Below, one piece after another: positions 25,110 through 40,010 of a stretch of DNA of 43,981 nt (positions are counted from its first letter, which is position 1; each line of letters starts with the position of its first letter). The stretch covers positions 1 to 43,981 of the forward strand of contig JAPPIT010000035.1 in NCBI GenBank assembly GCA_028820505.1, read 5' to 3'. The DNA comes from Defluviicoccus sp. Lineage in GTDB: Bacteria > Pseudomonadota > Alphaproteobacteria > MPNO01. Below the pieces are notes generated by a model, which did not search any database, was not told the DNA's origin, and saw nothing but the letters and a program-made list of their open reading frames with translations. The position numbers were made by a program, and so were the translations under genes.

Positions 25110-26234
25110 GTGTCGAGAGCCGGCCTTACCGACGCCCGAATCGGGGCGCTCGTCCCGCGCAAGACCTCATACGACCTCCGCGACGGAAAGCTCAGGGGCT
25201 TCGGTGTCCGGGTGACGCCCGCGGGCAGGAAGCGCTTCTTCGTCCACTGCCAGCACCGGGGAGAGCGCGTCTGGAAGATCGTCGGCGATTTCCCAGAGAT
25301 CGACGTGAAGGAAGCCCGCTCGCGCGCGACCGGGATGCTGGCCGCGATCAGGCGGGGCGAGCCCGCGCCGGCCCGGCCGGAGGAGGCGCTCTTCGAGGCC
25401 GTCGCCGAGGCCGTGTTCCGGAGGCACGAACGGGTCTGGAAGCCGGGCACGCTCCACGTGAACCGGGGCTATCTCGAAAGACAGATCCTGCCCCGCTTCG
25501 CTGGGCGGCCCGTCGCGGAGATCGACCGGCGCGATGTGCGCAGCTGGTTCGCCTCGCTGGCCGCGACCCCGGCCGCCGCCGACCGCTCCATGCCGATCCT
25601 TTCCGTCATCATGCGGGGCGCCGAGGCGATGGGTCTCCGACCTGAGGGCTCCAACCCTTGCCGGGGCGTAAGGCGTTACCGCCGCAAGGGGCGCGAGCGG
25701 TTCCTGTCGGACGCCGAAATCCGCGGGCTGTCCCGGGTACTGGCCGCGTGTGCCGATGAGAGTCCCCGACAGGTCGCGGCGATCCGTCTTCTTCTTCTCA
25801 CCGGATGCCGCAAGAGCGAGCTCCTGACACTCCGCTGGTCCGATTACCGCGAGGGACGCCTGTTCCTCCGCGACTCCAAGACGGGACCCCGAACCGTCTG
25901 GCTGTCGCAGCCGGCGCGGGACATTCTCGATCGTATCGAGCGGACCGGCGCATGGGTGTTTCCGTCGCCGCGGGCGGGACGGCCGCGCAGCACCGACTGG
26001 CTGGACAATTTCTGGTGGCGCATCCGGACCGAGGCGGGTCTCGACGACGTGCGCCTCCACGATCTCCGCCACACGCATGCGAGCGTCGCCCTGAGACTGG
26101 GCGAGACCGTGCTCGCCATCGGCCGGCTGCTCGGCCACGCCGACCCCGAGACCACCCTCAAATACACCCACGCCGCCGACGCGACGGTGATGCAGGCCGC
26201 AGAGACGGTCGGCGCCGTATTGGGGGCCCAATAA
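25110..26234 (+). CDS. tyrosine recombinase / phage-type integrase 1
   Basis: 374 residues. The N-terminal 85 residues (YDLRDGKLRGFGVRVTPAGR) are the arm-type DNA-binding domain (DUF4102-like), followed by a SAM-like core-binding domain at about 93-185. The catalytic residues are all present: R234 (TGCRKSELL), K257, H317-x-x-R320 (HDLRHTH), H343 (LLGHAD) and Y352 (LKYTH). The GTG at 25110 follows GGGAG. It carries out site-specific integration and excision. Its stop overlaps the start of a second recombinase (TAATG), so both are made from one mRNA. The two proteins are similar in layout but clearly diverged. Confidence 0.92.
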   Translation: MSRAGLTDARIGALVPRKTSYDLRDGKLRGFGVRVTPAGRKRFFVHCQHRGERVWKIVGDFPEIDVKEARSRATGMLAAIRRGEPAPARPEEALFEAVAEAVFRRHERVWKPGTLHVNRGYLERQILPRFAGRPVAEIDRRDVRSWFASLAATPAAADRSMPILSVIMRGAEAMGLRPEGSNPCRGVRRYRRKGRERFLSDAEIRGLSRVLAACADESPRQVAAIRLLLLTGCRKSELLTLRWSDYREGRLFLRDSKTGPRTVWLSQPARDILDRIERTGAWVFPSPRAGRPRSTDWLDNFWWRIRTEAGLDDVRLHDLRHTHASVALRLGETVLAIGRLLGHADPETTLKYTHAADATVMQAAETVGAVLGAQ

Positions 26235-27373
26235 TGCCGGCAAGGGAACGCAGGAAGCTGACGGATGCCACCGTCGCCCGTCTCCGACCCCGGGTGCGGG
26301 AATATACGGTGTGGGACAGCCGCGTACCCGCCTTGGGCGTCCGGGTGCGGCCGACAGGCGGGAAGGCCTGGGTCATGCTGGAGGAAACGGGCGGGCGATC
26401 GAGGCGCGTCTCGCTGGGGCCGATCTCGGTGATGAGCGTCGACGAGGCCCGCCGGGAATGTCTCGTCAGACCGACCGGCCTAGTGGCGGAACCCGCCGCG
26501 CCGGCGCGCCCGGTGCCGACGTTCCGCGAGTTCGTCGAAAGCGAGTGGAAGGAAGCGCACTTCGTCCGCTACAAGCCATCGACACGGAAAACCACGACCT
26601 GGCTCCTCGAAGCCAGGTTCCTGCCCGCCTTCGGCGAGAAGCCGCTCGACCGCATCGCCCCGGCCGAGATCAGGCGCTGGTTCGACGCCTTCAGCCGCAC
26701 CGCGCCGGGCAACGCCAACCGGGCCCTCGACGTCCTGCGCCAGATGATGAACTTCGCCGTCGCCAGGGGACACATCGAGACCAACCCGACGCGGGGCATC
26801 GAGCGGAACCGCCGGCCGCGGAAGACGCGGTTCCTGTCGCGCGAGGAGATTGCCCGGCTGCACGACGTGCTCGACGCCGAGGACAGGAAGGGCAACCGCC
26901 AGCATGCCGACATCATCCGCCTTCTGCTGCTGACCGGGTGCCGCAAGAACGAGATCCTCCGGCTGCGCTGGTCCGAGGTCGGGGACCACATGCTGGAGCT
27001 CGTCGACAGCAAAACGGGGCCGAGGAAAGTTCCCCTCAATGCCCGGGCGCGGCGTATCCTCGACAGGCAGCCGCGCGGCGAAGGCGCGTTCGTGTTTCCG
27101 TCGCCGCGCAATGCGAACCGCCCGCTGAGCGACAATCTCGACTTCTGGTTCCGGGTCCGAAGGGAGGCCGGCATCGAAGACGTGCGGCTTCACGACCTCC
27201 GTCATACGCACGCCAGCCACGCGGCCATGAGTGGCGTTCCCATCCCCGTCGTCTCCCGCCTGCTCGGCCATTCCAGCGTCCGCATGACGCTGCGATATGC
27301 CCATCTCGGTGACAGAGAGATCGAGGCCGCGGCGGAGAGGGTGGGGCAATCCATTGCCAGCATCATGGGGTAA
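26234..27373 (+). CDS. tyrosine recombinase / phage-type integrase 2
   Basis: 379 residues starting at the ATG overlapping the previous stop. Arm-binding domain at 1-75 (YTVWDSRVPALGVRVRPTGG), core-binding domain at about 95-190, catalytic domain 198-379 with R237 (TGCRKNEIL), K260, H320-x-x-R323, H346 (LLGHSS) and Y355 (LRYAH). All catalytic residues are intact. An open frame extends upstream of the ATG inside the first gene but has no recombinase-like sequence there. Tandem, coupled recombinases suggest that both are needed for transposition-like movement, or that they act on different sites. Confidence 0.92.
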   Translation: MPARERRKLTDATVARLRPRVREYTVWDSRVPALGVRVRPTGGKAWVMLEETGGRSRRVSLGPISVMSVDEARRECLVRPTGLVAEPAAPARPVPTFREFVESEWKEAHFVRYKPSTRKTTTWLLEARFLPAFGEKPLDRIAPAEIRRWFDAFSRTAPGNANRALDVLRQMMNFAVARGHIETNPTRGIERNRRPRKTRFLSREEIARLHDVLDAEDRKGNRQHADIIRLLLLTGCRKNEILRLRWSEVGDHMLELVDSKTGPRKVPLNARARRILDRQPRGEGAFVFPSPRNANRPLSDNLDFWFRVRREAGIEDVRLHDLRHTHASHAAMSGVPIPVVSRLLGHSSVRMTLRYAHLGDREIEAAAERVGQSIASIMG

Positions 27374-27672
27374 AGCACGCCATCGGCGCTATCAAGGTTT
27401 GCGCAGCCGAAAGAACCCGCCATTGGGTAGCCTTGGTTTCGTCATTCGACCGAACGCCAGGTTGTCCCCCCATGACAGAATGTGTTCCAATACCCCGCGT
27501 AGTCGCCCTACCCGCCGTCTCGTGAACATGAAACGCGAACGACTGAAAACATGGACGAGAAACCGAACGCACCAAGCGTTCGACCATTACTACTTCCGAG
27601 TGCTACGCACTCTCGCCTATCCATGCCGCGATCTGTCTGGTACCCACCGATTTCCGCAACTTGAGTTCTCGC
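27374..27672. other. non-coding stretch after the recombinases
   Basis: About 300 bases with no supportable gene. Base composition falls from clearly GC-rich to roughly balanced across it. It presumably carries the promoter of the DUF6932 gene, but no convincing -35/-10 pair was recognised. No tRNA, repeat array or clear terminator was seen. Confidence 0.6.
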
Positions 27673-28257
27673 ATGCCGATTCCCGACTTTACCCTTGACG
27701 GTGTCCTCCCGCCTTTCCTTGGGCCGCACGGGCCCGGCGGCCATCCAGCGGATATGTCCCCCTACGACGCCACCGCCCTGGAAGTAGTCACCCGCTTCGG
27801 AACTACCACGCCTCGCAACACCATCCTTCGCGGTTGGCTCGATCACCGTGCTGGCCTACGCGCCGCTGGCTTTCTGGATGGTTTCCAATGGCTAAACGGC
27901 AGCTTCGTAGAAGACAAGCAACCACGGGACCTTGATGTGGTTGCTTTCCTCTATCGTCCAACCGGAATCCTAGATGCGGTGTCGCTTCAGGCCCTCATGA
28001 ACTCCAACCCCCATTTGTTTCTCCGACAGAACGTTCGCGCTAAGTATCAACTTGATTTCATTTCCGTTGATTTGAATGGCACTGCCGAATTCCTTGTGCA
28101 AATGTCCCGGTATTATATGGGCTTATTCTCTCATCGTCGCAACGATCAACTATGGAAGGGGATGTTGCAGGTTCGTCTTGACGATCCCATTGGTGACCAA
28201 GCGGCAGTAGCAGCGCTGGCCGCGAGTTCGATGCCATCCGGAGGAGCCACGATATGA
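27673..28257 (+). CDS. DUF6932 family, nucleotidyltransferase-like protein
   Basis: 194 residues. The start MPIPDFTLDGVLPPFLG is characteristic of DUF6932. WLNGSFVEDKQPRDLDVVAF (residues 73-92) resembles a nucleotidyltransferase active site: G76-S77 followed by D86 and D88. A third acidic residue may be in YQLDFISVDL. The activity is unproven; related folds add nucleotides to RNA, proteins or small molecules and occur in toxins and anti-phage effectors. The ATG at 27673 is preferred over a TTG at 27661 because family members begin at this point. It overlaps the next gene by ATGA, indicating a two-gene unit. Codon use is more AT-rich than the recombinases. Confidence 0.75.
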   Translation: MPIPDFTLDGVLPPFLGPHGPGGHPADMSPYDATALEVVTRFGTTTPRNTILRGWLDHRAGLRAAGFLDGFQWLNGSFVEDKQPRDLDVVAFLYRPTGILDAVSLQALMNSNPHLFLRQNVRAKYQLDFISVDLNGTAEFLVQMSRYYMGLFSHRRNDQLWKGMLQVRLDDPIGDQAAVAALAASSMPSGGATI

Positions 28258-29204
28258 CGAGCCAAAGAAAGCTGGCGCTCGACCTTCTCCATGCCGATCT
28301 CACAGCTGTTGACGATCTAATTGCTCGGCTGACCGATGAAGACGTAATGGCACGCGTCGGTTTAGAAGATCGTCGTGAAGAAATAAAAGCTCTCATACTG
28401 AATGCGGAAAAAACGCTGATAGACGAAACCGCATCTGCAACTTTGTTTTTTGGTGGGAAGCCGGTGTCAGGGATACACGGCATAGAAAGTAAATTTGCTG
28501 CTTCCGCTGTAGGCACGTTTCAAGACCTTGTTGCCATGATACTGGCACATAAAGCCGGTACACTGTCTGAACGCGGTGCCGTAGCCCATAGAGAGTCATC
28601 AACGCTGTACATTACTGATGTGGCGCGAGGCTCCGTCGGATTTGTTCTCGAGGAAGTTCGGCCTCAGAAGAATTTGACTGACACTCCATTGAGCGATGCG
28701 GTTACTGAGGCAACGCAATTGCTTGCGGCATTCACTGCGACAAACGAGCATGAATTTCACGACCGCCTTGATTCCGTGGAACAGCGCGTCGTTGTTAGCG
28801 CTGGAAAGTTCTTCCAACTGATGCGCCGTAACGGCGCGACGCTCCGCCTCGTGACCAGCAAGTCGGATCACACCTACGGTGTAGAAGCTGTCGCTCGGGG
28901 CGCCGCCAGAGCAAGATCTACAACGACGGATTCGGAGGACCGAATTGTTATTGGCCGGCTTGGCGGCGTGCTCCCTGATACACGGCGGTTCGAGTTCAGA
29001 TGCGAAGAAGAAGAGCTGGGAACACTTTCTGGAAGGGTAGCACGAACACTCGGTACCAACGATCTAGACTACTATAACCGTGAACTACTTAACACCCGTG
29101 TACAGGCAAGAATGACCGTAACGTACATTTATCGCAATGAGGAGCTCCTGCGTGAGACCTATACTCTAATTGAATTGACGCCCGTAGCCGAGGATCACAC
29201 GTAA
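28254..29204 (+). CDS. unrecognised protein coupled to the DUF6932 gene
   Basis: 316 residues; no family recognised. The first third is strongly helical and acidic (DLLHADLTAVDDLIARLTDEDV, EEIKALILNAEKTLIDET). A central block SSTLYITDVARGSVGFVLEEV looks like a conserved beta-rich core and is followed by DATQLLAAF-type helices. The C-terminal part (GRLGGVLPDTRRFEFRCEE, LSGRVARTLGTNDLDYYNRELLNTRVQARMTVTYIYRNE) looks like a small beta-barrel or ligand-binding domain. No membrane segments or signal peptide. The start overlaps the DUF6932 stop, so the two proteins probably act together, as effector and regulator or as a complex. Convergent with the ubiquitin-like operon, 10 bases apart. Confidence 0.7.
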   Translation: MTSQRKLALDLLHADLTAVDDLIARLTDEDVMARVGLEDRREEIKALILNAEKTLIDETASATLFFGGKPVSGIHGIESKFAASAVGTFQDLVAMILAHKAGTLSERGAVAHRESSTLYITDVARGSVGFVLEEVRPQKNLTDTPLSDAVTEATQLLAAFTATNEHEFHDRLDSVEQRVVVSAGKFFQLMRRNGATLRLVTSKSDHTYGVEAVARGAARARSTTTDSEDRIVIGRLGGVLPDTRRFEFRCEEEELGTLSGRVARTLGTNDLDYYNRELLNTRVQARMTVTYIYRNEELLRETYTLIELTPVAEDHT

Positions 29205-29214
29205 GACCGTTTAG

Positions 29215-29550
29215 CTATCTTGCGCACCATATAACCCGGCCACTTTTTAGCCAGAAATGCGACCTGCAACCAGTCGTCCGCCATATGGAGGGCGTCAGAC
29301 TCGGATGCCCGCGGCGATCTACCGATAGTGTCCAGCGAGGACAAACATCACGCGCGAGGGGTAGTTCGATTATGTCGCCGCACCCGCAGGGACACAATAG
29401 ACCGATGCTCCAGTCAGAGCCACCATCACGTGTCACTATAATCCGTCGCCGGGCAATTGAGACCGGAAGCTCGTCATCTTCAATCCGCTTCAGGGCTCGT
29501 CGAGGTGAAAGAAATTCCTTGGCGTTTTTCCACCACCTAGTCCAGTTCAC
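29215..29550 (-). CDS. DUF6527 family protein of the ubiquitin-like operon
   Basis: 111 residues. After a basic N-terminal helix, the protein shows LLCPCGCGDIIELPL (C53, C55, C57), C70, then PSLTPSIW, GCRSHFWLKSGRVIWC (C95, S97, H98, C109). This is the DUF6527 pattern, a family that travels with bacterial multi-ubiquitin/E1/JAB genes. The cysteines could bind zinc; the conserved S-H-F near the end could be catalytic. A protease/deconjugase or an E3-like adaptor role is possible, and I cannot decide between them. The GTG at 29550 overlaps the stop of the E1 gene (GTGA), so it is the third gene of a coupled operon. Confidence 0.75.
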   Translation of the reverse strand: MNWTRWWKNAKEFLSPRRALKRIEDDELPVSIARRRIIVTRDGGSDWSIGLLCPCGCGDIIELPLARDVCPRWTLSVDRRGHPSLTPSIWRTTGCRSHFWLKSGRVIWCAR

Positions 29551-30947
29551 GCAACGGTCTCCGTTGTCGTTTCACCTAATGCGGGCATACCTAGAAGCGG
29601 CTCGCGACTCCCTCGACCCAGCAGGGGATTATTTCGTTTTTCGAAGCTATCTTCATCGTAGAAGTCCTCTTCCGCGGCAGCTAGGCTGAATGTGGTTCGG
29701 GCATACCGGCGATTGGGGTCCAGCCGGAACGGATAACGCCGCAGGATGAACTCGTTCATACACGCCGATGCGGCTCTCATGTTGAGCGAGATTACGGCGG
29801 GCGCTTCTTCGACGACACCCCTGATATATCCATCCTCCACTTCTTGCGCGTGCGCTTCGGGCGCTGCTCGTCGCAGATATTCGGCCCGAAGTGTTTCCGG
29901 AGTGTAGACGTTCCGGTCACGCAAGGTCGCTCCTCCAGGCTGCACGTAGTCTATTCTTCCCACAGCGTCCGCGATTGCCACCGTGCCATCCTTCCGCCGG
30001 ACCGGGATCGCCACGCCGACATCGAATAATGGCAGAAGAAATGCCGAGGCGATCAGATCTGCGAAATATCGACCCTCCAGACTGTCGACACAGCAAAACA
30101 GGACGTCGCCCTGGCTGGCAGCCAGCACGGCTTCCCGCGTGTTGATTGATGCCACGATCAGAACCGCACAGCCTTTTCCACGATATGTCGCGATGGCACG
30201 AGCGAGCACATTGGTCTTGTACCGGCGTGCCACCGCATCGGCTCTCGTTGCATTCAGAATTCGGTTAAGGTTCTTCTTCTTCACCTTGTCGAAATCAATC
30301 GGGATCACGCGCCCAAACCCGAGTCTGGCCGCCTGCTCCGCCTGAATGGAACCGGTGCCGGAAGCGCCGATCACCACGGCCGTCAACCGTCCCAACTCCG
30401 CAGTCATCGCACTTGTGAAGGCAATCGGCCGATCACCCGGCCCGTCCGGCGACGCCGCTTCCTCCCACCACAACGAGAGTTCGTCGCCCGCGCAAGCAAC
30501 CAGATCGATTGGCGTACATCTCATGTCGGAATCGTAGATGCGCGCCCGCACAGCGCCATCAGGCGTCATGATCGCGGAGCCATGCAAGTCTCCGTAGGCC
30601 TGGAACAGAGAACTCACCGCAATCAGATCGCTCGCGTCGTCGTCATCGGAAAAGAGGAAGGAGCCGCCAGGATGCGAATGCAGCAGAATGACGTTCAGCC
30701 CCTCAAGCTCGCCCTGCTCGACCGCTTCCTCAAGGTACCTGCCGGGCCATACGATCCGATCGGGCCGGCGACTTGCACAGGCGCCATGGGGAACAAGGAT
30801 TACGTCCCGTACCAGTAGCCGCAATCGAGGGCCAGGGGTACGGGTGCACAAGAGGATCGCTGCTGCTTCAAGCCCATCCCCCGGAAACAGATGCTCGCGA
30901 AGCTTGGCATGGGTCGTACCGGCCAAGGCGAGAGTAGTGTTCTTCAT
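29547..30947 (-). CDS. JAMM (JAB) peptidase - E1-like activating enzyme fusion
   Basis: 466 residues from the ATG at 30947, which has a near-ideal AAGGAGGTGGGAGA site and overlaps the upstream stop (ATGA). Residues 10-155 form a JAMM metalloprotease with all zinc/catalytic residues: E27, H90-S-H92-P, S100 and D103 (HSHPGGSFLFSDDD). Residues 180-410 are a ThiF/E1 adenylation domain: GASGTGS (194-200), IDFD (D218, D220), KKKNLNR (N226, R229), K244, and CVDSLEGR (D288, R293). So one chain should both process or remove the ubiquitin-like protein and adenylate it. In a canonical E1 a catalytic cysteine receives the modifier; candidates exist (C285, C286 among others) but none is clearly in position. 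The C-terminal 50 residues are low-complexity and acidic. Confidence 0.9.
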   Translation of the reverse strand: MKNTTLALAGTTHAKLREHLFPGDGLEAAAILLCTRTPGPRLRLLVRDVILVPHGACASRRPDRIVWPGRYLEEAVEQGELEGLNVILLHSHPGGSFLFSDDDDASDLIAVSSLFQAYGDLHGSAIMTPDGAVRARIYDSDMRCTPIDLVACAGDELSLWWEEAASPDGPGDRPIAFTSAMTAELGRLTAVVIGASGTGSIQAEQAARLGFGRVIPIDFDKVKKKNLNRILNATRADAVARRYKTNVLARAIATYRGKGCAVLIVASINTREAVLAASQGDVLFCCVDSLEGRYFADLIASAFLLPLFDVGVAIPVRRKDGTVAIADAVGRIDYVQPGGATLRDRNVYTPETLRAEYLRRAAPEAHAQEVEDGYIRGVVEEAPAVISLNMRAASACMNEFILRRYPFRLDPNRRYARTTFSLAAAEEDFYDEDSFEKRNNPLLGRGSREPLLGMPALGETTTETVA

Positions 30948-32056
30948 TCTCCCACCTCCTTTGTCAGAGCAGCGTCGACGAGACCAAGATGCGTTACCAC
31001 GTTGTCGGTCTCCGGATCCCACGGTGCCAACTGCCCGCGGTGGCGCGACCATCCGTGGAACTCATTACCGAGAATAGTGCCGCGCAACTGCGTCCTGGGG
31101 ATTGCTCTCCCTGACGCCAAGGCGAGCTCCGGATACGCGTAGAACCCGTACAGGGCTGCGCCCGGGTACATGTCCGGAATCTCGAGAGCCAGCGTGGTTT
31201 CTCGAGCCGTGTAACCGGGCGGCAGCGGAAACCGATAGATGACCAGCCAACGCCGCTTGCCGTCGATGATCGTCTCCCACCTGAGCTTGAGGCGATCGAG
31301 ATACTCGGTGTCGCCGTCAAGCAAAGCAAAGTCGCGGCGAGGCGCCTGAGGCGCCTCCCCGTTGTCGACGTTCTTGGGCATCAATCGAAGCTTCTCGATC
31401 CCCGGCGTCTTGAGGTCGACGATGTAGTCGAGATCCACCTCGTGCTTGGGCTGGTCCCTGACTTTCAGGAAGACATGCCAGTCCTTGCTGACATCGAAAC
31501 CGGCCTGTTCCATGGCAGCGCTCACGGCGACCGTGGGGGTCGAAACATCGATCACCACGCCATGCACATTCAGCTTCCAGGAAGCCTTCCCCGTCACGAA
31601 CGCTTCGATGCCTTCCATGTCCAGATCCACCAGATCATGGTCTCCGATCATCAGATCCGGCTCATCCCGCCGCTGCAGGTAGACGACCGAGCCTTCCGGC
31701 ACCTTCGCGAGCTTCCGGAGAACTCCGCCACTGACGATTCGGCAGGGCCATTCGAATCGCTGCCCATCCACCGTCAGCAGGTAAATGCGGTCAGACGCGA
31801 CGATCACGAACCGGCCATCACATTTGGTCAGATCGATCACCTCTTCGGGGCGAATGGACTCAAGTGCCCCGTCCGGGAGCACCTGCAAAACGATTGCCCC
31901 GTCCCCCGGCTTGAAACCGGCGCTGCGGGCAAGCTGCGCTCCCGTTGGCGTAGGGTCCTCGACCTTGACGTCCCGGAAGGAAAGCGTCTGGTCGGCGACA
32001 TGGATCAGGTTGTGGTCTTTTCCGCGGCTCCCCGCGGTCTCGGCAGTTCCAGGCAT
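30944..32056 (-). CDS. triple ubiquitin-like repeat fused to a cysteine-free E2-like domain
   Basis: 370 residues. Three ubiquitin-like (multi-ubiquitin type) repeats are visible at about 15-85, 90-157 and 160-228. They share a beta-hairpin start and a closing (D/E)-x-(I/L)-V/I-D-L pattern, with GIE after the second and third copies. A linker (KNVDNGEAPQAP) leads to residues 240-370, which match the Prok-E2_E type: RRDFALLDGDTEYLDRL, FPLPPGYTARET, IPDMYPGAALYGFYAYP, GWSRHR (336-340) and PWDPETDNVVTHLGLVD. The only cysteines in the whole protein are C79 and C105, in Ubl repeats; the E2 domain has none, so a classical thioester E2 step is impossible. S337 of WSRH is a candidate acceptor. No diglycine tail is seen. 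ATG at 32056 with AAGGAG; an in-frame ATG at 32074 lacks one. First gene of the three-gene operon. Confidence 0.88.
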   Translation of the reverse strand: MPGTAETAGSRGKDHNLIHVADQTLSFRDVKVEDPTPTGAQLARSAGFKPGDGAIVLQVLPDGALESIRPEEVIDLTKCDGRFVIVASDRIYLLTVDGQRFEWPCRIVSGGVLRKLAKVPEGSVVYLQRRDEPDLMIGDHDLVDLDMEGIEAFVTGKASWKLNVHGVVIDVSTPTVAVSAAMEQAGFDVSKDWHVFLKVRDQPKHEVDLDYIVDLKTPGIEKLRLMPKNVDNGEAPQAPRRDFALLDGDTEYLDRLKLRWETIIDGKRRWLVIYRFPLPPGYTARETTLALEIPDMYPGAALYGFYAYPELALASGRAIPRTQLRGTILGNEFHGWSRHRGQLAPWDPETDNVVTHLGLVDAALTKEVGE

Positions 32057-32106
32057 CGGATCTCTCCTTCTCATGCCTGCCGGCACCATTACCGGCGCTG
32101 CCTATG

Positions 32107-32178
32107 GTATCGAGCATACTAAGTTTCGCAAGCATTTTCTTCGCACCGCTTGATTTGCTTAGCGACATAGGCTATGTA
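32107..32178. promoter_or_regulatory. divergent promoter region between the ubiquitin-like operon and the XRE/ImmA pair
   Basis: The 163 bases between the two divergent genes are AT-rich. Rightward: TTGATT (32150-32155), 17 bases, TATGTA (32173-32178), then an inverted repeat GATGG-N6-CCATC (32181-32196) over the likely start site, a possible XRE operator. Leftward, a weaker pair TTGCGA...TACCAT lies around 32106-32132. A small repeat GTAT-cgagc-ATAC is at 32107-32119. All are by eye; the rightward promoter is the better supported. Confidence 0.45.
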
Positions 32179-32219
32179 TAGATGGGTGATTCCATCCATC
32201 GTCACAGGGAGGAGATGAC

Positions 32220-32603
32220 ATGGCTGAGACTGACGATGACGCCACCGGCACGGCCGACAGACTAGGCCCCTATCTCAACAGCACCCGCCGCGGTCTGGCC
32301 CTGTCCCTGCGAGACGTGGAGGAAGCTACTGGACGGGAAGTCAGCAATGCCTATCTGAGCCAGCTCGAATCTGGGAAGATTCGAAAACCCTCGCCACACA
32401 TCCTGTATGCACTTTCCACGGCGCTCTCGGTTCCGTACGAGGACCTTATGGAACGCGCCGGCTATATCGCCCCGTCCCGTGACCGCACCGCTGCAAGCAA
32501 GCACGGACGGATTGCCACGTTCTCAATCGAGAACTTGACCGCGGATGAAGAGAAAGCACTGCTCGAACATCTCGCATACATCAGATGGCAGCAGAAGAAA
32601 TGA
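32220..32603 (+). CDS. XRE-family HTH transcriptional regulator
   Basis: 127 residues. Residues 17-80 form a Cro/CI-type helix-turn-helix (LNSTRRGLALSLRDVEEATG, VSNAYLSQLESGKIRKPSPHILYALSTALSV). The tail TADEEKALLEHLAYIRWQQKK may contact its partner. ATG at 32220 follows AGGGAGGAG. Its stop overlaps the metallopeptidase start (ATGA). This XRE plus ImmA/IrrE pairing is known from ImmR-ImmA of ICEBs1 and from many defence loci, where the peptidase removes the repressor after a stress cue. Here it is divergent from the ubiquitin-like operon, so it may control that operon or itself. Confidence 0.9.
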   Translation: MAETDDDATGTADRLGPYLNSTRRGLALSLRDVEEATGREVSNAYLSQLESGKIRKPSPHILYALSTALSVPYEDLMERAGYIAPSRDRTAASKHGRIATFSIENLTADEEKALLEHLAYIRWQQKK

Positions 32604-33517
32604 GCCAACTTCCCGACGATTCTTCCCTGACCCCTGCCCAGCTCGCCAAGGTGAAAGCAGAGGCTGAGCGCGCCTTGCGCGAGGCGGGGGTCATCGGCGT
32701 CCTGCCAACACCACTGGATGAAATCCTTACTGCCGCCCGTGTACAGGAAATTCACGAAGATGTGCTTAACGACAGCTTCCTCACCAAACTGCGCAAGAAA
32801 GCTGACAAAAAGCTAAAGCAAGCTCTATCCAAAGTCCTCGGAGTGTTTGACGCGGTCTCAAGCCTGATCTTCGTTGACCAACTGCTTGCTCCGGTAAAGA
32901 AGCGCTTTATCAGCCTGCATGAAGCTGCCCACGGCTTTCTTCCCTGGCAGCGCAGCATGTATCGAATTGTGGAAGATTGCGACAAGTCTCTGGACCCCGA
33001 GGCCGCGGACCTTTTTGACCGCGAAGCCAACGTATTCGCTTCTGAAGTCCTGTTTCAGAACGATACCTTTCACGATCTTGCGGTGGATAAGCCGTTTGAG
33101 ATCTGGACTCCAATTAGGCTTGCGAAGAAATTCGATGCTTCCCTGTACTCATCTATTCGTCAGTATGTCTCGAAAAGCGATCGCTGTTGCGTCGTTCTCG
33201 TTCTGAATCCTCCCCAGTTGTTGGAGCATTTCGGGTTCAGGGCTACTCTTCGCCGTGTTGTGTCGTCCAGCAAATTTGCAACTGTGTTCGACAATAGCCG
33301 CTGGCCACAGACCTATACGCCCGATGATCGGATCGGCCGTATGGTCCCGCTTGGCAAACGGCGATCATCCGGAAAGCAGGAGTTGTCCTTAACAGACGCT
33401 AACGGTGACCGCCATGATTGTATCGCCGAATCCTTCACTCAAAAGCATCAAGTCTTTATCCTTATTCATGTAACCGAGACACTTGGCCGGCCCAAAATAA
33501 TCTTGCCCGCCAGTTAA
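32600..33517 (+). CDS. ImmA/IrrE-family metallopeptidase
   Basis: 305 residues from the ATG at 32600, which overlaps the XRE stop; an in-frame ATG lies 15 bases earlier. The zinc site is SLHEAAHGFLP (HExxH at 107-111), with the second family motif DREANVFASEVLF (141-152) supplying the third ligand. The N-terminal 100 residues contain a helical region rich in lysine (KLRKKADKKLKQALSKVLG). The C-terminal 120 residues are probably a sensor domain. It probably cleaves the XRE regulator. Base use is AT-richer than the flanking chromosome. Convergent with the HNH gene, 6 bases apart. Confidence 0.88.
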   Translation: MSQLPDDSSLTPAQLAKVKAEAERALREAGVIGVLPTPLDEILTAARVQEIHEDVLNDSFLTKLRKKADKKLKQALSKVLGVFDAVSSLIFVDQLLAPVKKRFISLHEAAHGFLPWQRSMYRIVEDCDKSLDPEAADLFDREANVFASEVLFQNDTFHDLAVDKPFEIWTPIRLAKKFDASLYSSIRQYVSKSDRCCVVLVLNPPQLLEHFGFRATLRRVVSSSKFATVFDNSRWPQTYTPDDRIGRMVPLGKRRSSGKQELSLTDANGDRHDCIAESFTQKHQVFILIHVTETLGRPKIILPAS

Positions 33518-33523
33518 GCCATA

Positions 33524-34375
33524 TCAGGCTTCGGCCATAAGGACGTGAAGCTCACTGACTGTCAGGGGAGGGTTTCTTCTATGCACCACTGCATGGCAAT
33601 TCGGGCAGAGCGGGACAAGATCCCGAGCAGGGTCGATTATATATCCCGCACCAAGTTCCGATACTGGTGTGACGTGGTGAACCTCAACATATCCGGAAGC
33701 TAATGATCCGTAACGCATACCCATTTCCAGGCCACAACCCTTGCAGGCCGTTCCATGAATTGCTATCGCGGCCGCTCGATTTCTTTTGTCCCTTTCGTAT
33801 CGATTTGCCTTGACCGAGACAACGGAACCTTCTGGATAGCCAACTACTTCTGATTCCGTATTTTCAACGACTTCTTCAGTTGGAAGAATAGCAACAACGC
33901 CAGCCGAGAACCGGACAGTCCACTGGCAGACAATTTGGGCATCGGGTTCGCCTTCGTCAGTACCCAGTTCCAGTTGGCCCTTGTTCATCGAAAACAGCAG
34001 GCGATTCCAGTTCTGCGACCACACGTTTTCGTCATCAAACTCAAATCGTACGCCATTTATTTCAAGATCGATCTGCGCCCCCAGGCGACGACTGTCGGCC
34101 AGCACTGCAAGAAATGCCGACCGGCCCTCTGCTTCTGCGTTACCCATGTCCTCCAGAAGGGAGCCGGCAAACTTGCCGGGTTCAAACTCGATCCGAAGAC
34201 GCCTCCACTGGAGTGTCGTCCGAATACCAAAGGTATGGTCCGAAAGCAGACCCCGAGGGCGAAGCATATACCAGCGCTGGCCGTCGGCATCCACGCCGGT
34301 TTCAGCTTCGAACTCGAGCCCGGTTTGCCCCGTGATCGCCTTTGCCAGATGCTCGGGCTCAAGCGACGTCCGCAT
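33524..34375 (-). CDS. HNH endonuclease of the paraMORC restriction operon
   Basis: 283 residues. The C-terminal domain is a zinc-stabilised HNH nuclease: CKGCG (C211, C214), VEVHHVTPVSEL (H233, H234), DLVPLCPNCHAVVHR (C257, C260, H261, H265), as in McrA-type enzymes. The N-terminal 150 residues (LRPRGLLSDHTFGIRTTLQWRRLRIEFEP) are an unrecognised, probably DNA- or protein-binding, beta-rich domain; a basic hinge (RYERDKRNRAAA) joins the two. ATG at 34375 behind GGAGG, overlapping the GHKL gene by 17 nt. It is the last gene and the clearest nuclease of the operon, so it is the likely cutting subunit. Confidence 0.88.
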   Translation of the reverse strand: MRTSLEPEHLAKAITGQTGLEFEAETGVDADGQRWYMLRPRGLLSDHTFGIRTTLQWRRLRIEFEPGKFAGSLLEDMGNAEAEGRSAFLAVLADSRRLGAQIDLEINGVRFEFDDENVWSQNWNRLLFSMNKGQLELGTDEGEPDAQIVCQWTVRFSAGVVAILPTEEVVENTESEVVGYPEGSVVSVKANRYERDKRNRAAAIAIHGTACKGCGLEMGMRYGSLASGYVEVHHVTPVSELGAGYIIDPARDLVPLCPNCHAVVHRRNPPLTVSELHVLMAEA

Positions 34376-35966
34376 CCTCGTCCGCCTCCGGTTCTGGCAG
34401 GCCTTCCACCAGCTTTCGCAGAATACGCGTCACCTCGTACCGCATGTCCTTGAACCCCTCAGCCGTCTTGTCGGTGGTCGCGCTGAGCTCCGCCACACAA
34501 AGCGCCCAAAGCAGCGAGTCCATTCCCTGCACAGTCACGCTGCTGTTCAGGTTGGGCACGTAGACCTTATGGTAGTAGGGATGCTGCGTATTGATGCGCA
34601 CCGCCTTGTGCCGTTCGATCACTGCCGGCTCAAATAGCAGTCCGTCCTCCACATCCTCGGCCGGCTGGACGAACACCTCACCTGGCCTCGCGGCCGAGCT
34701 GATCTTCAACTTCATCTTGAACAGGCCGTGTTCGTTCTTGACGGTCACCTCGCCTGTATTGGGATCACTTATGTTGACTTCGGCCCCTCCAACCTCCGCT
34801 TCCTTGTTCCGGATCGAGTTGTTCGAGGCCTCGTGGGCGTTCTTTGCCTTGTCGGCAATATCTTTCTTCCGTCCCTGGCGGTATCGACGATTGGCCTCGC
34901 GGCGCGGTGCTGTCAGAAACTGGTCCTTCAACCAGTTCCAGAGTTCATCGTTGAGGATGATCTGTGATTTCTTGATATCGAGATGGAACGCGTCGTCCAG
35001 TTTGTGATCGAAGGAGAATTCGATCCTCAACAGGGTGCTGTGCGGTTCCTTCTGGAACATGTTCAGCCAATCGGCTTCATGAATCAGCCGCTCTTCCCGG
35101 TAAATGTAAAGACCCTGCATGTTCGACGAGAGCCTCGCCGCTTTCGCCAGCTTGTCATCCGGGAATTCTTCGCGGCGCGGCAGGATGTATGCCCGAACAC
35201 GAAACTTGGCCCCCGTGCCTTCCACCTCGACCGAGTCTTCGGCTACCAGTTCTGACAGCGCTTTCTGAAACGGATCCCACGGGGCAACCCGTTCTCCGTT
35301 CACCCTGATTTCGACGTTCCGTGCACGGCTGTCCGACTTGTCCAGGAATCGCTGATAGGTCATCGCGATGTGCTCGCTGAGTTCCCGACAGCGCTTCTTC
35401 AGCGCCCTGCGTGCATAACTGCCTGCAGGATCCTGATAATCCCTCAGCAATCGGTCGACCTTGTTCCAGAGAACAACGGTACCCGCCGAATCCGGCGCCA
35501 ACTCGTTGAGATGTTCGAGCGCCTCTTCGTCCGGTTCATCCGACATTTGCAGGAGCCACTGCTCGCTCTCCACCACATGGTCAAGATCCCATGTCGCCAT
35601 CAGTGCCGGCGCATCGCCCGACGCGCGCGATATCAACGACAGGCGACGGCAGAAGGCCGTTGAGGCCGTCTTCAGGCCAAGCCCGTATTTGCCCAAGCTT
35701 GCCGGATCCGGCCGTTTGGGCGATCCGTACTGCATCGCTTGAACGAGTCCGCTCCTGTCCATGCCACAACCGTTGTCGGCGATAGACAGCTGAACATCCC
35801 CCCGAAAATCCTGTTCGACCCGCACACTTACCTTCTTCGCCCCTGCGGCAATCGAGTTGTCCACAAGGTCGGCAACGGCCGTTTCAAAGCTGTAGCCGGT
35901 GTCGCGCAGTCCTTCGATCGTCCGCCCGGGGTTGGGGATGGACTCGATACTTTCCATTCCGGACAT
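34359..35966 (-). CDS. GHKL ATPase of the prokaryotic MORC (paraMORC) type
   Basis: 535 residues. The N-terminal Bergerat fold is complete: N-box TAVADLVDNSIAA (D33, D36, N37), G1 IADNGCGMD (64-70) and G2 LGKYGLGLKTAS (91-102). A second, S5-like domain probably spans about 200-340 (IRVNGERVAPWDPF, SSNMQGLYIYREERLI). The rest contains a basic, coiled segment (EANRRYRQGRKKDIADKAKNAHEASN) and ends with an acidic tail. Such ATPases close around DNA on binding ATP; the bacterial relatives were described by Iyer and colleagues as MutL/MORC homologues in restriction systems with helicases and nucleases, which fits this operon. The ATG at 35966 follows AAGGAAGAGC. Confidence 0.88.
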   Translation of the reverse strand: MSGMESIESIPNPGRTIEGLRDTGYSFETAVADLVDNSIAAGAKKVSVRVEQDFRGDVQLSIADNGCGMDRSGLVQAMQYGSPKRPDPASLGKYGLGLKTASTAFCRRLSLISRASGDAPALMATWDLDHVVESEQWLLQMSDEPDEEALEHLNELAPDSAGTVVLWNKVDRLLRDYQDPAGSYARRALKKRCRELSEHIAMTYQRFLDKSDSRARNVEIRVNGERVAPWDPFQKALSELVAEDSVEVEGTGAKFRVRAYILPRREEFPDDKLAKAARLSSNMQGLYIYREERLIHEADWLNMFQKEPHSTLLRIEFSFDHKLDDAFHLDIKKSQIILNDELWNWLKDQFLTAPRREANRRYRQGRKKDIADKAKNAHEASNNSIRNKEAEVGGAEVNISDPNTGEVTVKNEHGLFKMKLKISSAARPGEVFVQPAEDVEDGLLFEPAVIERHKAVRINTQHPYYHKVYVPNLNSSVTVQGMDSLLWALCVAELSATTDKTAEGFKDMRYEVTRILRKLVEGLPEPEADEDADVA

Positions 35967-35976
35967 GCTCTTCCTT

Positions 35977-36405
35977 TCAGATATTGACCACTTTCCACCC
36001 GGCGCCCAATCGGATAACAGTTTCCCCTGCCTCGTTCATTGACACGGGCTGCTCATTCGAGCGTCGGTAAGAAATGGAGTAGTTGCCACCGCTATCCCGA
36101 TGCATCACGACTTCATCTCCGGTCGCCAGCCCCGACTCCCGGATATACCGCGTCATACGGGTAAGCCTGTATTCGTTGCGTGTGCCGCCAAAAAAGCCGT
36201 TGTTGTAGTAAATGAAAGCAAATTCCCAAAACCGCCCTGTAGCATCCTCGAAATGCAGATGAGCGCGAGGGTTGAGCTTAGATGCATCGAGCACGGGAAA
36301 AAACGAAAGAATACGTTTCTTCTTCGGTATCAGCAGCCCTGCCTGGTGACCACCGGTCTCTCCCGAGTCATTCGCACTCAGAACTTTGGAAATCGTCAGT
36401 TCCAT
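35977..36405 (-). CDS. free-standing EcoRII N-terminal-type DNA-recognition domain
   Basis: 142 residues, all one domain. SANDSGETGGHQAGLLIPKKK, FEDATGRFWEFAFIYYNNG, GGTRNEYRLTRMTRYIRESG and GDEVVMHRD reproduce the DNA-binding pseudobarrel (B3-like) N-terminal domain of EcoRII, which reads CCWGG. The catalytic C-terminal domain of EcoRII is entirely absent, so this is a recognition factor without its own nuclease. It probably supplies sequence specificity to the HNH nuclease, paraMORC and SNF2 proteins. ATG at 36405 overlaps the SNF2 stop (TGATG); a TTG directly in front is also possible. It ends 10 bases before the GHKL gene. Confidence 0.85.
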   Translation of the reverse strand: MELTISKVLSANDSGETGGHQAGLLIPKKKRILSFFPVLDASKLNPRAHLHFEDATGRFWEFAFIYYNNGFFGGTRNEYRLTRMTRYIRESGLATGDEVVMHRDSGGNYSISYRRSNEQPVSMNEAGETVIRLGAGWKVVNI

Positions 36406-38318
36406 CAAGTACCAACCGATCTTGTAGCCGATGGTGAGCGCTCCAGCGCTGCCATAATGTCCTGGTAGTCCTCTTCCTTGCCCTCCACCCCGATCACCGC
36501 TGATTCGGCAATGTCCCGTTTGCGCCGCAACCGCTCATCCATGACTTCTTCAACTGTTCCCGCGCAAATCAGTCGCCGCACAGTCACGGGACGTTCCTGT
36601 CCTCGTCTATGTGCCCGTGCCGATGCCTGGTCTTCAAGTGCGGGGTTCCATTCAGGATTGTAGTGAATGACATGGTTCGCAGCTGTTATGTTCAATCCCG
36701 AGCCCCCAGCCCGGGGATTCAGGACCAGCACCGCGGATCCGCCATATCCGGAAAACATGTCAATGAGGGGCTGCCGGTCCTCAGTGTCCAGACGCCCGTC
36801 AAGCGTTGCAGACATCGCGCCAAGTTGACTTGAAATCATGTTTGCAATCAGGTCTGCCATCTTGGTGTACGAAGTGAACACAAGCACCTTCTCGCCAAGG
36901 GCGAATATTTCCTCCAGCAATTCCTTAAGGCGCTCAAACTTAGAGAATGTTTCCGCTTGAAAACTCCACTCGTTACCCAAGACATGGGGATGGGCACAAA
37001 ACTGTCTGAGTTTTCCCAAGGAAACCAGTGTCGCCGCCGCCCCGTATCCCGCTAGAACCTTTTCGCGCACTTCATCGTATGCGCAAGCCTCAGCCTCGTT
37101 CAACTCCAGAATCTCCGGGATGTCGATACGCTCCGGAAGATCACGGGCGACCTCCGACACACGTCGGCGCAGCATCAAGGGCGTCACGAGCGGTTCCAGC
37201 CTGGCCGCTGCTTCGGCGTCCTCCGCATACCGTGCCTCAAAGCTCTTCAGGTCACCTAGGTATCCGGGCAACGCAAAATCCATGATGGACCAGAGATCCC
37301 GCAATCGATTCTCGACCGGAGTCCCGGTAACCGCCAATCCCGCCTTGCGCCCAATCTGCTTGACCGACTTCGTGCGAAGGGCATCCGGATTCCGGATGTT
37401 CTGTGCCTCGTCGAGCACAACCACATTCCAGTCGACCATCTTCAGCAATGACAGATCCCGAACCGCTGTGTCATAGGAGGAGACAACGACATCGAAGCCC
37501 TGCAGTTCAACCGGCCTCCCGGTTCGCTCGCTCCCGTGGTGCTTGAGCGACCGGAAGTCCGGACAGAACCTCGCGATTTCGCGCATCCAGTTTTCCAGCA
37601 GCGACCCTGGCGCCAGCACCAGCGCCCCGCCTGAACCAAGCTTCCCACCGGGATCGCGCAACGCGCAGATCACCTGCAAAGTCTTGCCCAGCCCCATTTC
37701 ATCGGCCAGCAACCCGCCCAGTTCCTCCCGCATGAGGAAACGGAGCCATTGCCAGCCATCGCGCTGGTAGGGGTAGAGACTCGCCGTTATCCCTTCCGGA
37801 CCCTGATCGGTTCGGGTCCCAAAGATCAACTTTGTCAGCGCATCGTCCGGAAGCCGATCGATAACCGGTGCACCTTCGACCGCCGCCCTCTTCAAAGCCA
37901 GAATTCCCGCGAGACTTCGCGACCGTGCCGCATCCGGGTCATATCCGCTCTGCTCCAGCAACTCCGCAAGGTCGCCGGCACTCCCGGGTACGCCGGGATA
38001 CCAAACTCGCTCATGCACAACGTGCCCGCGAGCCGCCGCTTCCCTCGACACCGGGAAAGTCCTGCCCTTCTGGGTGCGGGCCTCGAACGCAACAACGGGC
38101 CAGTCTGAATCCGCGCCGCCCACAATTACCGCGGCCAGTTCGACCGGATACCGGGAAAACCGAAGCATGTCCGCGTCGCCGCACTTGCCAGCCGGCAGAT
38201 CCGGCCAGGTTGGACCCTGTTCAATAACGGACGCGTAAACCTGGTTCGCGTCTGCAGCAATCCGCGCTTCGCCATCGGCTATCTCCAGCACGTCCCCGTT
38301 CAGCACCCAGCGTTTCAT
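36405..38318 (-). CDS. SNF2-family DNA translocase/helicase
   Basis: 637 residues. After an N-terminal domain of about 190 residues, the SF2 motor shows all motifs: YPYQRDGWQWL (Q), LADEMGLGKTLQ (I), VVVSSYDT, VVLDEAQNIRN (II), VTGTPVENRLRDLW (III), KVLVFTSYTKMADL (IV), LNPRAGGSGLNITAANHVIHY (V) and DQASARAHRRGQERPV (VI). It should translocate on double-stranded DNA, probably to carry or activate the nuclease or find target sites. The ATG at 38318 overlaps the Vsr stop (ATGA); an open frame upstream overlaps vsr and is ignored. Confidence 0.92.
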   Translation of the reverse strand: MKRWVLNGDVLEIADGEARIAADANQVYASVIEQGPTWPDLPAGKCGDADMLRFSRYPVELAAVIVGGADSDWPVVAFEARTQKGRTFPVSREAAARGHVVHERVWYPGVPGSAGDLAELLEQSGYDPDAARSRSLAGILALKRAAVEGAPVIDRLPDDALTKLIFGTRTDQGPEGITASLYPYQRDGWQWLRFLMREELGGLLADEMGLGKTLQVICALRDPGGKLGSGGALVLAPGSLLENWMREIARFCPDFRSLKHHGSERTGRPVELQGFDVVVSSYDTAVRDLSLLKMVDWNVVVLDEAQNIRNPDALRTKSVKQIGRKAGLAVTGTPVENRLRDLWSIMDFALPGYLGDLKSFEARYAEDAEAAARLEPLVTPLMLRRRVSEVARDLPERIDIPEILELNEAEACAYDEVREKVLAGYGAAATLVSLGKLRQFCAHPHVLGNEWSFQAETFSKFERLKELLEEIFALGEKVLVFTSYTKMADLIANMISSQLGAMSATLDGRLDTEDRQPLIDMFSGYGGSAVLVLNPRAGGSGLNITAANHVIHYNPEWNPALEDQASARAHRRGQERPVTVRRLICAGTVEEVMDERLRRKRDIAESAVIGVEGKEEDYQDIMAALERSPSATRSVGT

Positions 38319-38782
38319 GCCGGAGGCGCTCCCGTGATTTCCGCTTCGGCCTCGCTTCCCTTGATCCATTGCTCAGCCCGACCGAGGACGGATTCGAAGT
38401 CAATCCTCCATTTCCCCTTGAGAGCGCATTCCCATATGACAAGCCTTCTCCAACCCTGTTCTTCCAGAGCGGTCCGCACTTCCCGGTCTCGCTCTACGTT
38501 CCGCGTGATTTTCGTCCTCCAGAATTCGGGCCGCGTCGACGGAAACTTGAAAAGGTGGCACTCGTGACCGTGCCAGAAACAGCCATGGACGTAGATCGCT
38601 GCACGATACCTGGGCAAAACGAGATCCGGCCTGCCAGGCACCTCTGCTGAGTGCAGACGGAATCTGAATCCCATCCGGTGCAGGCCCCGCCTTACCATCA
38701 TCTCCGGCTTGGTGTTCTTGCTTCGGATGCCGGACATCATCCGGCTGCGCGTTTCCGGATCGACTACATCAGGCACGAACAA
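38315..38782 (-). CDS. vsr: very short patch repair endonuclease
   Basis: 155 residues, typical of Vsr. TRSRMMSGIRSKNTKPEMMVRRGLH is the N-terminal signature. RPDLVLPRYRAAIYVHGCFW-HGHEC contains the catalytic Asp (D53) and His residues (H71, H73) and a zinc-site Cys (C75); VIWECAL carries the second zinc cysteine. Vsr nicks 5' of the T in T:G mismatches left by deamination of 5-methylcytosine in CCWGG-type sites, so its presence supports a C5 methylase with that specificity. The start is TTG (38782) or GTG (38776), both inside the methyltransferase 3' end; the overlap and GAGAAGG favour the TTG. Confidence 0.93.
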   Translation of the reverse strand: MFVPDVVDPETRSRMMSGIRSKNTKPEMMVRRGLHRMGFRFRLHSAEVPGRPDLVLPRYRAAIYVHGCFWHGHECHLFKFPSTRPEFWRTKITRNVERDREVRTALEEQGWRRLVIWECALKGKWRIDFESVLGRAEQWIKGSEAEAEITGAPPA

Positions 38783-40010
38783 GAACCTTCTCGTCGTCCC
38801 GACTCTCGGCCACCGCTTCTGTGAGCCAGGGACGCATGTGCCGGGCGATCATCTCCACGACAGGAACGACAACGGCGTTTCCGAACTGCTTGTATGCCTG
38901 AGTATCCGACACGGGGATCTTGAACCGCTTGTCGTCCGTGACGTCGAATCCCATCAGTCGGGCGCATTCCCGCGGAGTGAGCCGCCGGGGATTTCTCCTG
39001 CCACCCTGTCTGACCAGAATTTCCGATCCATCCTTGAAATAGCGTGCAGACAATGTGCGCGCGACGTCGTCCTTCCCGACCAGGCCATATCCAAACCCAT
39101 TGCCCCTTGCACGGTGCTTCCGGGCATACCCTTGCAAGTAGCGCCATAGATGATCGGACAGCGTGTACTTGCTGGACACGTTTGCGGTCGGCCCCCGTGT
39201 GAAGGGCTCCTCGGGCGCTTCCGACCCGTCTTCCGGATGTAGGATTGAACCAAGTCTCGGCCCGGCAGCCGAATCCGGCACCGCGACATCGTCAAAGTCG
39301 AATCCGTTGGGCTCCCTGAAACCCGCAATGAAAATTCGTTCCCGATGCTGCGGAACGAACCCCTTCGCATCAATTACGCGACAGTCGACCTGGTAGCCGA
39401 GCTCATTTTCCAGCGCACTCCGGATCACCCGGAAGGTACGGCCCCGGTCATGGCTGACCAGATTCTTGACGTTCTCCAGCAAGAACGCCTTGGGCCGGTG
39501 ATGTTCAAGGATTCGAGCAACGTCAAAGAACAGGGTGCCTTGGGCATCACAGTGGAATCCATGCCGCTGCCCAAGCGCATTCTTCTTTGACACTCCTGCA
39601 AGCGAGAATGGCTGACAGGGAAACCCCGCCAGCATGACATCGTGGGTTGGTATCGCGTTTGCAGGGATCGCCCGGATATCCCCGGCAATTTCATGGTCGC
39701 AGACGTTGTTCGCCAGATAGGTCTTTACGCAGTACTTGTCCCACTCAGAGGTAAAGACGCATTTTCCTCCAATCGCCTCGAAGCCCCGCCGAAGACCCCC
39801 GATTCCTGCGAACAGATCAATGAAGCTGAACCTGCCTTCCGATCGTGGCCGGTCTGCCGCTGCTCGACGTAGGTACAGCACCGCGGCTCGCCGGGGCGTC
39901 CCTTCGCCGGTTTCCCACCGATAGATCGTTCGTTCACAGTAGCCGAGCGCCTGCGTTGCCTCCGCAATGGTCAGACCCGCAGCCTTCCTGAGCCTAGAGA
40001 ACTCGGTCAT
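38769..40010 (-). CDS. dcm: DNA (cytosine-5) methyltransferase, EcoRII/Dcm type
   Basis: 413 residues. Residues 4-45 are an XRE-like helix-turn-helix (LRKAAGLTIAEATQALGYCERTIYRWETG). The methylase motifs follow: I FIDLFAGIGGLRRGF, IV AGFPCQPFS (catalytic C132), VI LLENVKN, VIII QHRERIFIAGF, IX RRLTPRECARLMGF and X AYKQFGNAVVVPV. The target-recognition part SSKYTLSDHLWRYLQGYARK, HRARGNGFGYG and ARTLSARYFKDGSEIL is strikingly like M.EcoRII/Dcm, so the predicted site is CCWGG with the inner C methylated. M.EcoRII is known to repress its own gene through its N-terminal extension; the HTH here suggests the same. First gene of the operon. Confidence 0.93.
   Translation of the reverse strand: MTEFSRLRKAAGLTIAEATQALGYCERTIYRWETGEGTPRRAAVLYLRRAAADRPRSEGRFSFIDLFAGIGGLRRGFEAIGGKCVFTSEWDKYCVKTYLANNVCDHEIAGDIRAIPANAIPTHDVMLAGFPCQPFSLAGVSKKNALGQRHGFHCDAQGTLFFDVARILEHHRPKAFLLENVKNLVSHDRGRTFRVIRSALENELGYQVDCRVIDAKGFVPQHRERIFIAGFREPNGFDFDDVAVPDSAAGPRLGSILHPEDGSEAPEEPFTRGPTANVSSKYTLSDHLWRYLQGYARKHRARGNGFGYGLVGKDDVARTLSARYFKDGSEILVRQGGRRNPRRLTPRECARLMGFDVTDDKRFKIPVSDTQAYKQFGNAVVVPVVEMIARHMRPWLTEAVAESRDDEKVLVRA

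Follow-up and report, generated by a model that had tools for sequence, protein, structure and literature searches.

A Bub-type ubiquitin-like conjugation operon beside CapH/CapP-type regulator genes in a Defluviicoccus contig

The Bub operon and its described relatives

Bub (bacterial ubiquitination-like) is an already described protein-tagging system resembling ubiquitin. Its gene organisation was set out early as operon type 6e of Iyer, Burroughs and Aravind (2006; Table 1, row 6e), in which a polyubiquitin-like (polyUbl) protein is in some species fused to an E2-like domain (note c), the E2-like domain is without a cysteine, a JAB domain is fused to an E1, and a metal-binding protein with the signature C-x3-C-x(35-38)- followed by H-x2-C is also encoded (PMC1779556). 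A close comparison for the present locus is provided by plasmids of Citrobacter, namely C. freundii pOZ181 (WP_032622076/075/073) and plasmids of C. braakii, which have both fusions and the same gene order as described here.

The stretch analysed (the window) comprises 43,981 nucleotides of a Defluviicoccus sp. contig (JAPPIT010000035.1). On its minus strand, from 32056 to 29215, lie three intact overlapping genes:

30944-32056, minus strand: BubAB precursor of 370 aa, three ubiquitin-like (Ubl) domains followed by a cysteine-less E2 (Pfam Multi_ubiq and Prok-E2_E; PDB 9d59, 9eav/9eae)
29547-30947, minus strand: BubCD of 466 aa, a JAMM/JAB protease at the N-terminus joined to an E1 with a ThiF-type adenylation domain (Pfam; PDB 9ea4/9ea5/9eav)
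29215-29550, minus strand: BubE of 111 aa, a DUF6527 protein with a GTG start (Pfam PF20137; alignment of 64 sequences; AF2 model)

The first gene begins with ATG, with a GAAGGAG Shine-Dalgarno sequence just upstream of 32056, and the genes are joined by ATGA (first and second) and GTGA (second and third) overlaps. At the curated Pfam cut-offs the bubAB product matched Prok-E2_E (2.2e-27) and, over two of the repeats, Multi_ubiq (4.5e-27), that of bubCD matched Prok-JAB (6e-7) and ThiF (1.2e-15), and that of bubE matched DUF6527 (3.1e-22). Strong matches were obtained to Citrobacter Bub chains in the PDB for BubA (2.5e-71; 9d59, labelled 'Multi-ubiquitin domain-containing protein', the label 'Citrobacter BubA' being that of the fragment in 9ea8/9eav), BubB (1.7e-28; 9eav/9eae) and BubCD (2.8e-147; 9ea4/9ea5/9eav). 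An earlier sequence-only reading had proposed three overlapping genes with these two junctions, coding for a triple-Ubl/E2 fusion, a JAMM-E1 fusion and a DUF6527 protein, and had taken them for a Bub-type conjugation operon; the gene calls, the Pfam families and the matches to solved Bub proteins agree with it. The operon, present as a single copy in the genome, is thus a real one, but of a system that is not new in kind.

Identity to the Citrobacter plasmid proteins is 47, 53 and 43% for BubAB, BubCD and BubE, respectively, and the Citrobacter operon has in common with the window operon DUF6527, overlapping starts and an NG|E junction between modifier and E2. The sequence features of Bub and Iyer type 6e are all present, these being tandem Multi_ubiq domains, a cysteine-less E2-like domain, a JAB domain at the E1 N-terminus and a DUF6527 protein with C-x3-C-x(35-38)-, encoded in a single operon of conserved order. 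There are differences too. In pOZ181 the place of CapH and CapP is taken upstream by another pair, the last member of which is a winged-HTH regulator, and the E2 of this plasmid has D-M where that of the window has Y-G; in the metal-binding pattern the last pair is C-x2-H in BubE of the window instead of H-x2-C. On balance the three genes very probably form a complete Bub operon of the Citrobacter plasmid build that is under CapH+CapP-type control.

The same reading had wondered whether the fused arrangement might be a distinct subtype, a suggestion that did not hold. Besides the Citrobacter plasmids and row 6e, the Ubl-E2 fusion occurs in 57, and BubE on the same strand in 77, of the 80 closest genomic relatives, which were fetched as the closest matches by E1 alignment, so that both fractions are biased toward close relatives. 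The tree of BubCD places the window within a large group of fused operons which includes the Citrobacter type, beside a Hyphomonadaceae locus. Judged by these sequence comparisons, the fused arrangement is common and long known, and not a new subtype. A single-sequence search of genome contigs with BubAB gave no match, the relatives being found with the BubCD alignment as query, and the phage records searched also gave no match.

BubE has the signature C53-x3-C57-x37-C95-x2-H98, and C53, P54, C57, P87, S88, C95 and H98 are invariant in the 64 sequences aligned. This small Cys/His protein is probably metal-binding. Searching the PDB with a profile found no match. AF2 gave a confident model (pLDDT 94), for which Foldseek and VIA-align comparison returned Z of 2.4 or below and no clear counterpart among solved folds. 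Its role is most likely, we propose, that of a second processing or specificity factor.

Regulators, genomic setting and likely purpose

Adjoining the Bub operon, and divergent from it, are genes for an HTH repressor and an HExxH peptidase, with a control region between the two transcription units:

32220-32603, plus strand: CapH-type HTH repressor of 127 aa (HTH_3 9.2e-9; PADLOC capH 9.8e-6)
32585-33517, plus strand: CapP-type ImmA/IrrE metallopeptidase of 310 aa with HEAAH at residue 112 (Peptidase_M78 2e-6; PADLOC capP 1.1e-10)
32057-32219, no strand: divergent control region of capH and bubAB, 163 bases, conserved in 9 loci
32148-32163, minus strand: left arm GCTAAGCAAATCAAGC of an inverted repeat, candidate repressor operator, conserved in 9 loci
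32118-32133, minus strand: right arm GCTTGCGAAACTTAGT of this inverted repeat, where relatives have TTGACA (-35-like)

CapW or CapH+CapP adjoins 219 of 544 Bub operons, and at the level of the family CapP is described as being activated by ssDNA and as cleaving CapH (PMC13373217). According to the CapH/CapP literature, DNA damage would activate CapP, the CapH repressor would be cleaved and the divergent promoter would be released. The inverted repeat at 32118-32163 is a candidate CapH operator, its CTAA and AAGC columns being invariant in the 9 loci. The relatives have the form GCTAAG...CAAGC / GCTTGACAAACTTAGC, of which the repeat in the window is a more degenerate version. A strict sigma-70 scan of the window control region found no promoter. 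The comparison thereby yields a conserved control element beside CapH and CapP.

Two tyrosine integrase genes stand in tandem at the edge of the island (25110-27373, plus strand), which adjoins genes of core metabolism, namely those for phosphoglycerate kinase and GAPDH. Beyond capP, at 33524-40010 on the minus strand, genes for an HNH protein, an MzaB-like GHKL ATPase, an EcoRII-N-like protein, a SNF2 helicase and a C5 cytosine methyltransferase follow in a row, as a second defence cluster of restriction type that may be composite. Integrases and restriction-type genes beside core metabolic genes fit an inserted defence island; no tRNA gene was found in the window.

The likely benefit of the Bub operon would be defence against phage or other DNA-damaging stress, and an anti-phage role is plausible. 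It is quite possible that the purpose is instead a general DNA-damage or stress-response modification of proteins, a rival on the purpose and not on the identity of the operon, as, according to the published account, protection from phage is still to be demonstrated for Bub operons, which may serve broader responses to stress (PMC13373217, EMBO J 2026). Set against this are the position of the operon, among restriction-modification genes in a cluster flanked by integrases, and the frequent location of its relatives on conjugative plasmids.

Modifier, E2-like domain and E1

The BubAB precursor can be divided as follows:

31802-31984, minus strand: Ubl domain 1 (Multi_ubiq)
31586-31780, minus strand: Ubl domain 2 (Multi_ubiq)
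31358-31585, minus strand: Ubl domain 3, residues about 158-233, with the C-terminal end ...KNVDNG (Citrobacter BubA match)
31358-31363, minus strand: Asn232-Gly233, where the modifier is predicted to be separated from the E2 (NG|E)
30947-31357, minus strand: BubB E2 domain, residues 234-370, with W336-S337-R338 invariant, no cysteine, and Y303-G304 for the usual D-M

For the third Ubl domain, residues 157-233 match residues 155-229 of Citrobacter BubA (PDB 9ea8/9eav). In the PDB, the chain of Citrobacter BubA stops at the glycine that matches G233, and 61 of the 63 fused members have NG[ED] where modifier and E2 meet. This almost invariant Asn-Gly|Glu/Asp junction points to precursor processing and looks like a processing site; together with the chain end it suggests that BubAB, made as a precursor, would be cut after Asn232-Gly233, yielding the E2 BubB and a triple-Ubl BubA that has glycine at its C-terminus.

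BubCD retains the JAMM residues E27, H90, H92, S100 and D103, which are 99-100% conserved in 84 rows, as well as the E1 nucleotide loop G194-x-S-G-T-G-S with N226, R229, K244, D281 and D288 (96-100% conserved). At residue 223 (30279-30281, minus strand), just before the E1 K-N-L-N-R motif, BubCD has Lys, a position at which 98% of relatives have Glu. ThiF-type E1s keep a cysteine in the region matching BubCD loop 330-345; in this loop, none of the three aligned members has one. Cysteine is also absent from the E2 half of BubAB (residues 234-370), and in the BubB alignment of 84 rows there is no conserved cysteine. The earlier reading had held that the JAMM and E1 adenylation residues were all present and that the system looked functional; the first part was borne out, while the second stands for the JAMM and E1 residues and not for the classic E2 catalytic cysteine. 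As that cysteine is absent here and in the whole family, activity must use other chemistry, and with the E1 loop lacking cysteine as well, transfer must rely on another, non-canonical nucleophile. The paper on the Bub mechanism reportedly argues for non-cysteine (ester) chemistry.

By its conservation within W336-S337-R338, Ser337 is the best candidate for a nucleophile in BubB. A BubB profile gave no sequence-level match to eukaryotic E2s, hence Ser337 is not alignable to the E2 cysteine. In the proposed sequence of events, BubC would adenylate the C-terminal glycine of BubA, as its E1 residues suggest, and the modifier would then pass via cysteine-free BubB to target proteins, probably through an ester on Ser337, while the JAMM domain, BubD, whose active-site residues are present, would remove or process the modifier. 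Both the choice of protease that would cut the BubAB precursor and the part given to Ser337 are what we infer.

Residues 303-304 of BubB (31145-31150, minus strand) are Y-G, with D-M in over 90% of relatives. Y-G is common to the window and three other loci only (L012, L014 and L017), and in these three of the four Y-G members H339 is replaced by N or Y. The BubAB tree groups the window with L012 and L014 in a supported clade and sets L017 apart on a long branch. Given Y-G for D303-M304 in BubB and K223 in BubC, it is not certain that the present system is fully active.

The Y-G pair, the changes at H339 and the family-wide absence of the cysteine would suit a catalytically dead, RWD-like E2 domain, as first proposed by Iyer et al., with the E1 transferring the modifier directly or the system just binding Ubl. 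This is unlikely, since the invariance of W-S-R in the 84 rows argues for kept function and the co-deposition of BubB chains with BubCD in the same PDB entries (9eae, 9eav) indicates that BubB binds the E1. The locus adds a further complete and apparently intact case of ubiquitin-like conjugation without cysteine in bacteria.

Bil (bacterial ISG15-like, BilA-D) systems are cysteine-based E1/E2/DUB/Ubl cascades which tag phage structural proteins. Like Bub they combine a Ubl, an E1, an E2 and a JAMM protease, and BubA is related to solved BilA (8u38, 5.5e-25). The Bil E2 is cysteine-based, however, and no cysteine is present in the E2 of the window; in addition, the JAMM and E1 domains are fused here, and the matches of the three catalytic proteins to Citrobacter Bub chains are much the stronger. 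Assignment of the operon to Bil, refuted by the missing E2 cysteine, is highly improbable, but the two may share a kind of target (phage virions). Type II CBASS (Cap2/Cap3) was rejected, as the E1 is fused to JAB and not to an E2 and the scanned genes surrounding the operon gave no CD-NTase family match.

The neighbouring X316-DUF6932 pair

Convergent with bubE, and about 10 bp past it, lies a pair of genes at 27661-29204 on the plus strand:

28254-29204, plus strand: X316, matching no family
27661-28257, plus strand: DUF6932 protein with a GSF-DLD nucleotidyltransferase-like motif (PADLOC PDC-M63A 2.4e-8)

The AF2 model of X316 is weak (pLDDT 73, pTM 0.46), with Foldseek matches no better than E 0.02. 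Six relatives (L002, L012, L013, L015, L022 and L028) have the pair at the corresponding position. Among these L002, the conjugative plasmid pBs5S5b of Bradyrhizobium septentrionale, has all seven genes in the same order and orientation (CapP, CapH, BubAB, BubCD, BubE, X316, DUF6932), with proteins of 47-64% identity to those of the window and an E2 that retains D-M. The pair is also found without Bub nearby on three plasmids (L009-L011), which makes it a module of its own. The Y-G E2 group and this recurrent neighbour are two modest oddities of the present Bub operon. A joint reading, in which the pair acts together with Bub in a seven-gene composite, be it as guard, effector or target module, and in which transfer chemistry or specificity is changed in the Y-G group, seems doubtful. 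When mapped on the trees, the presence of X316 and DUF6932 requires two to three changes, that is, repeated gain or loss.
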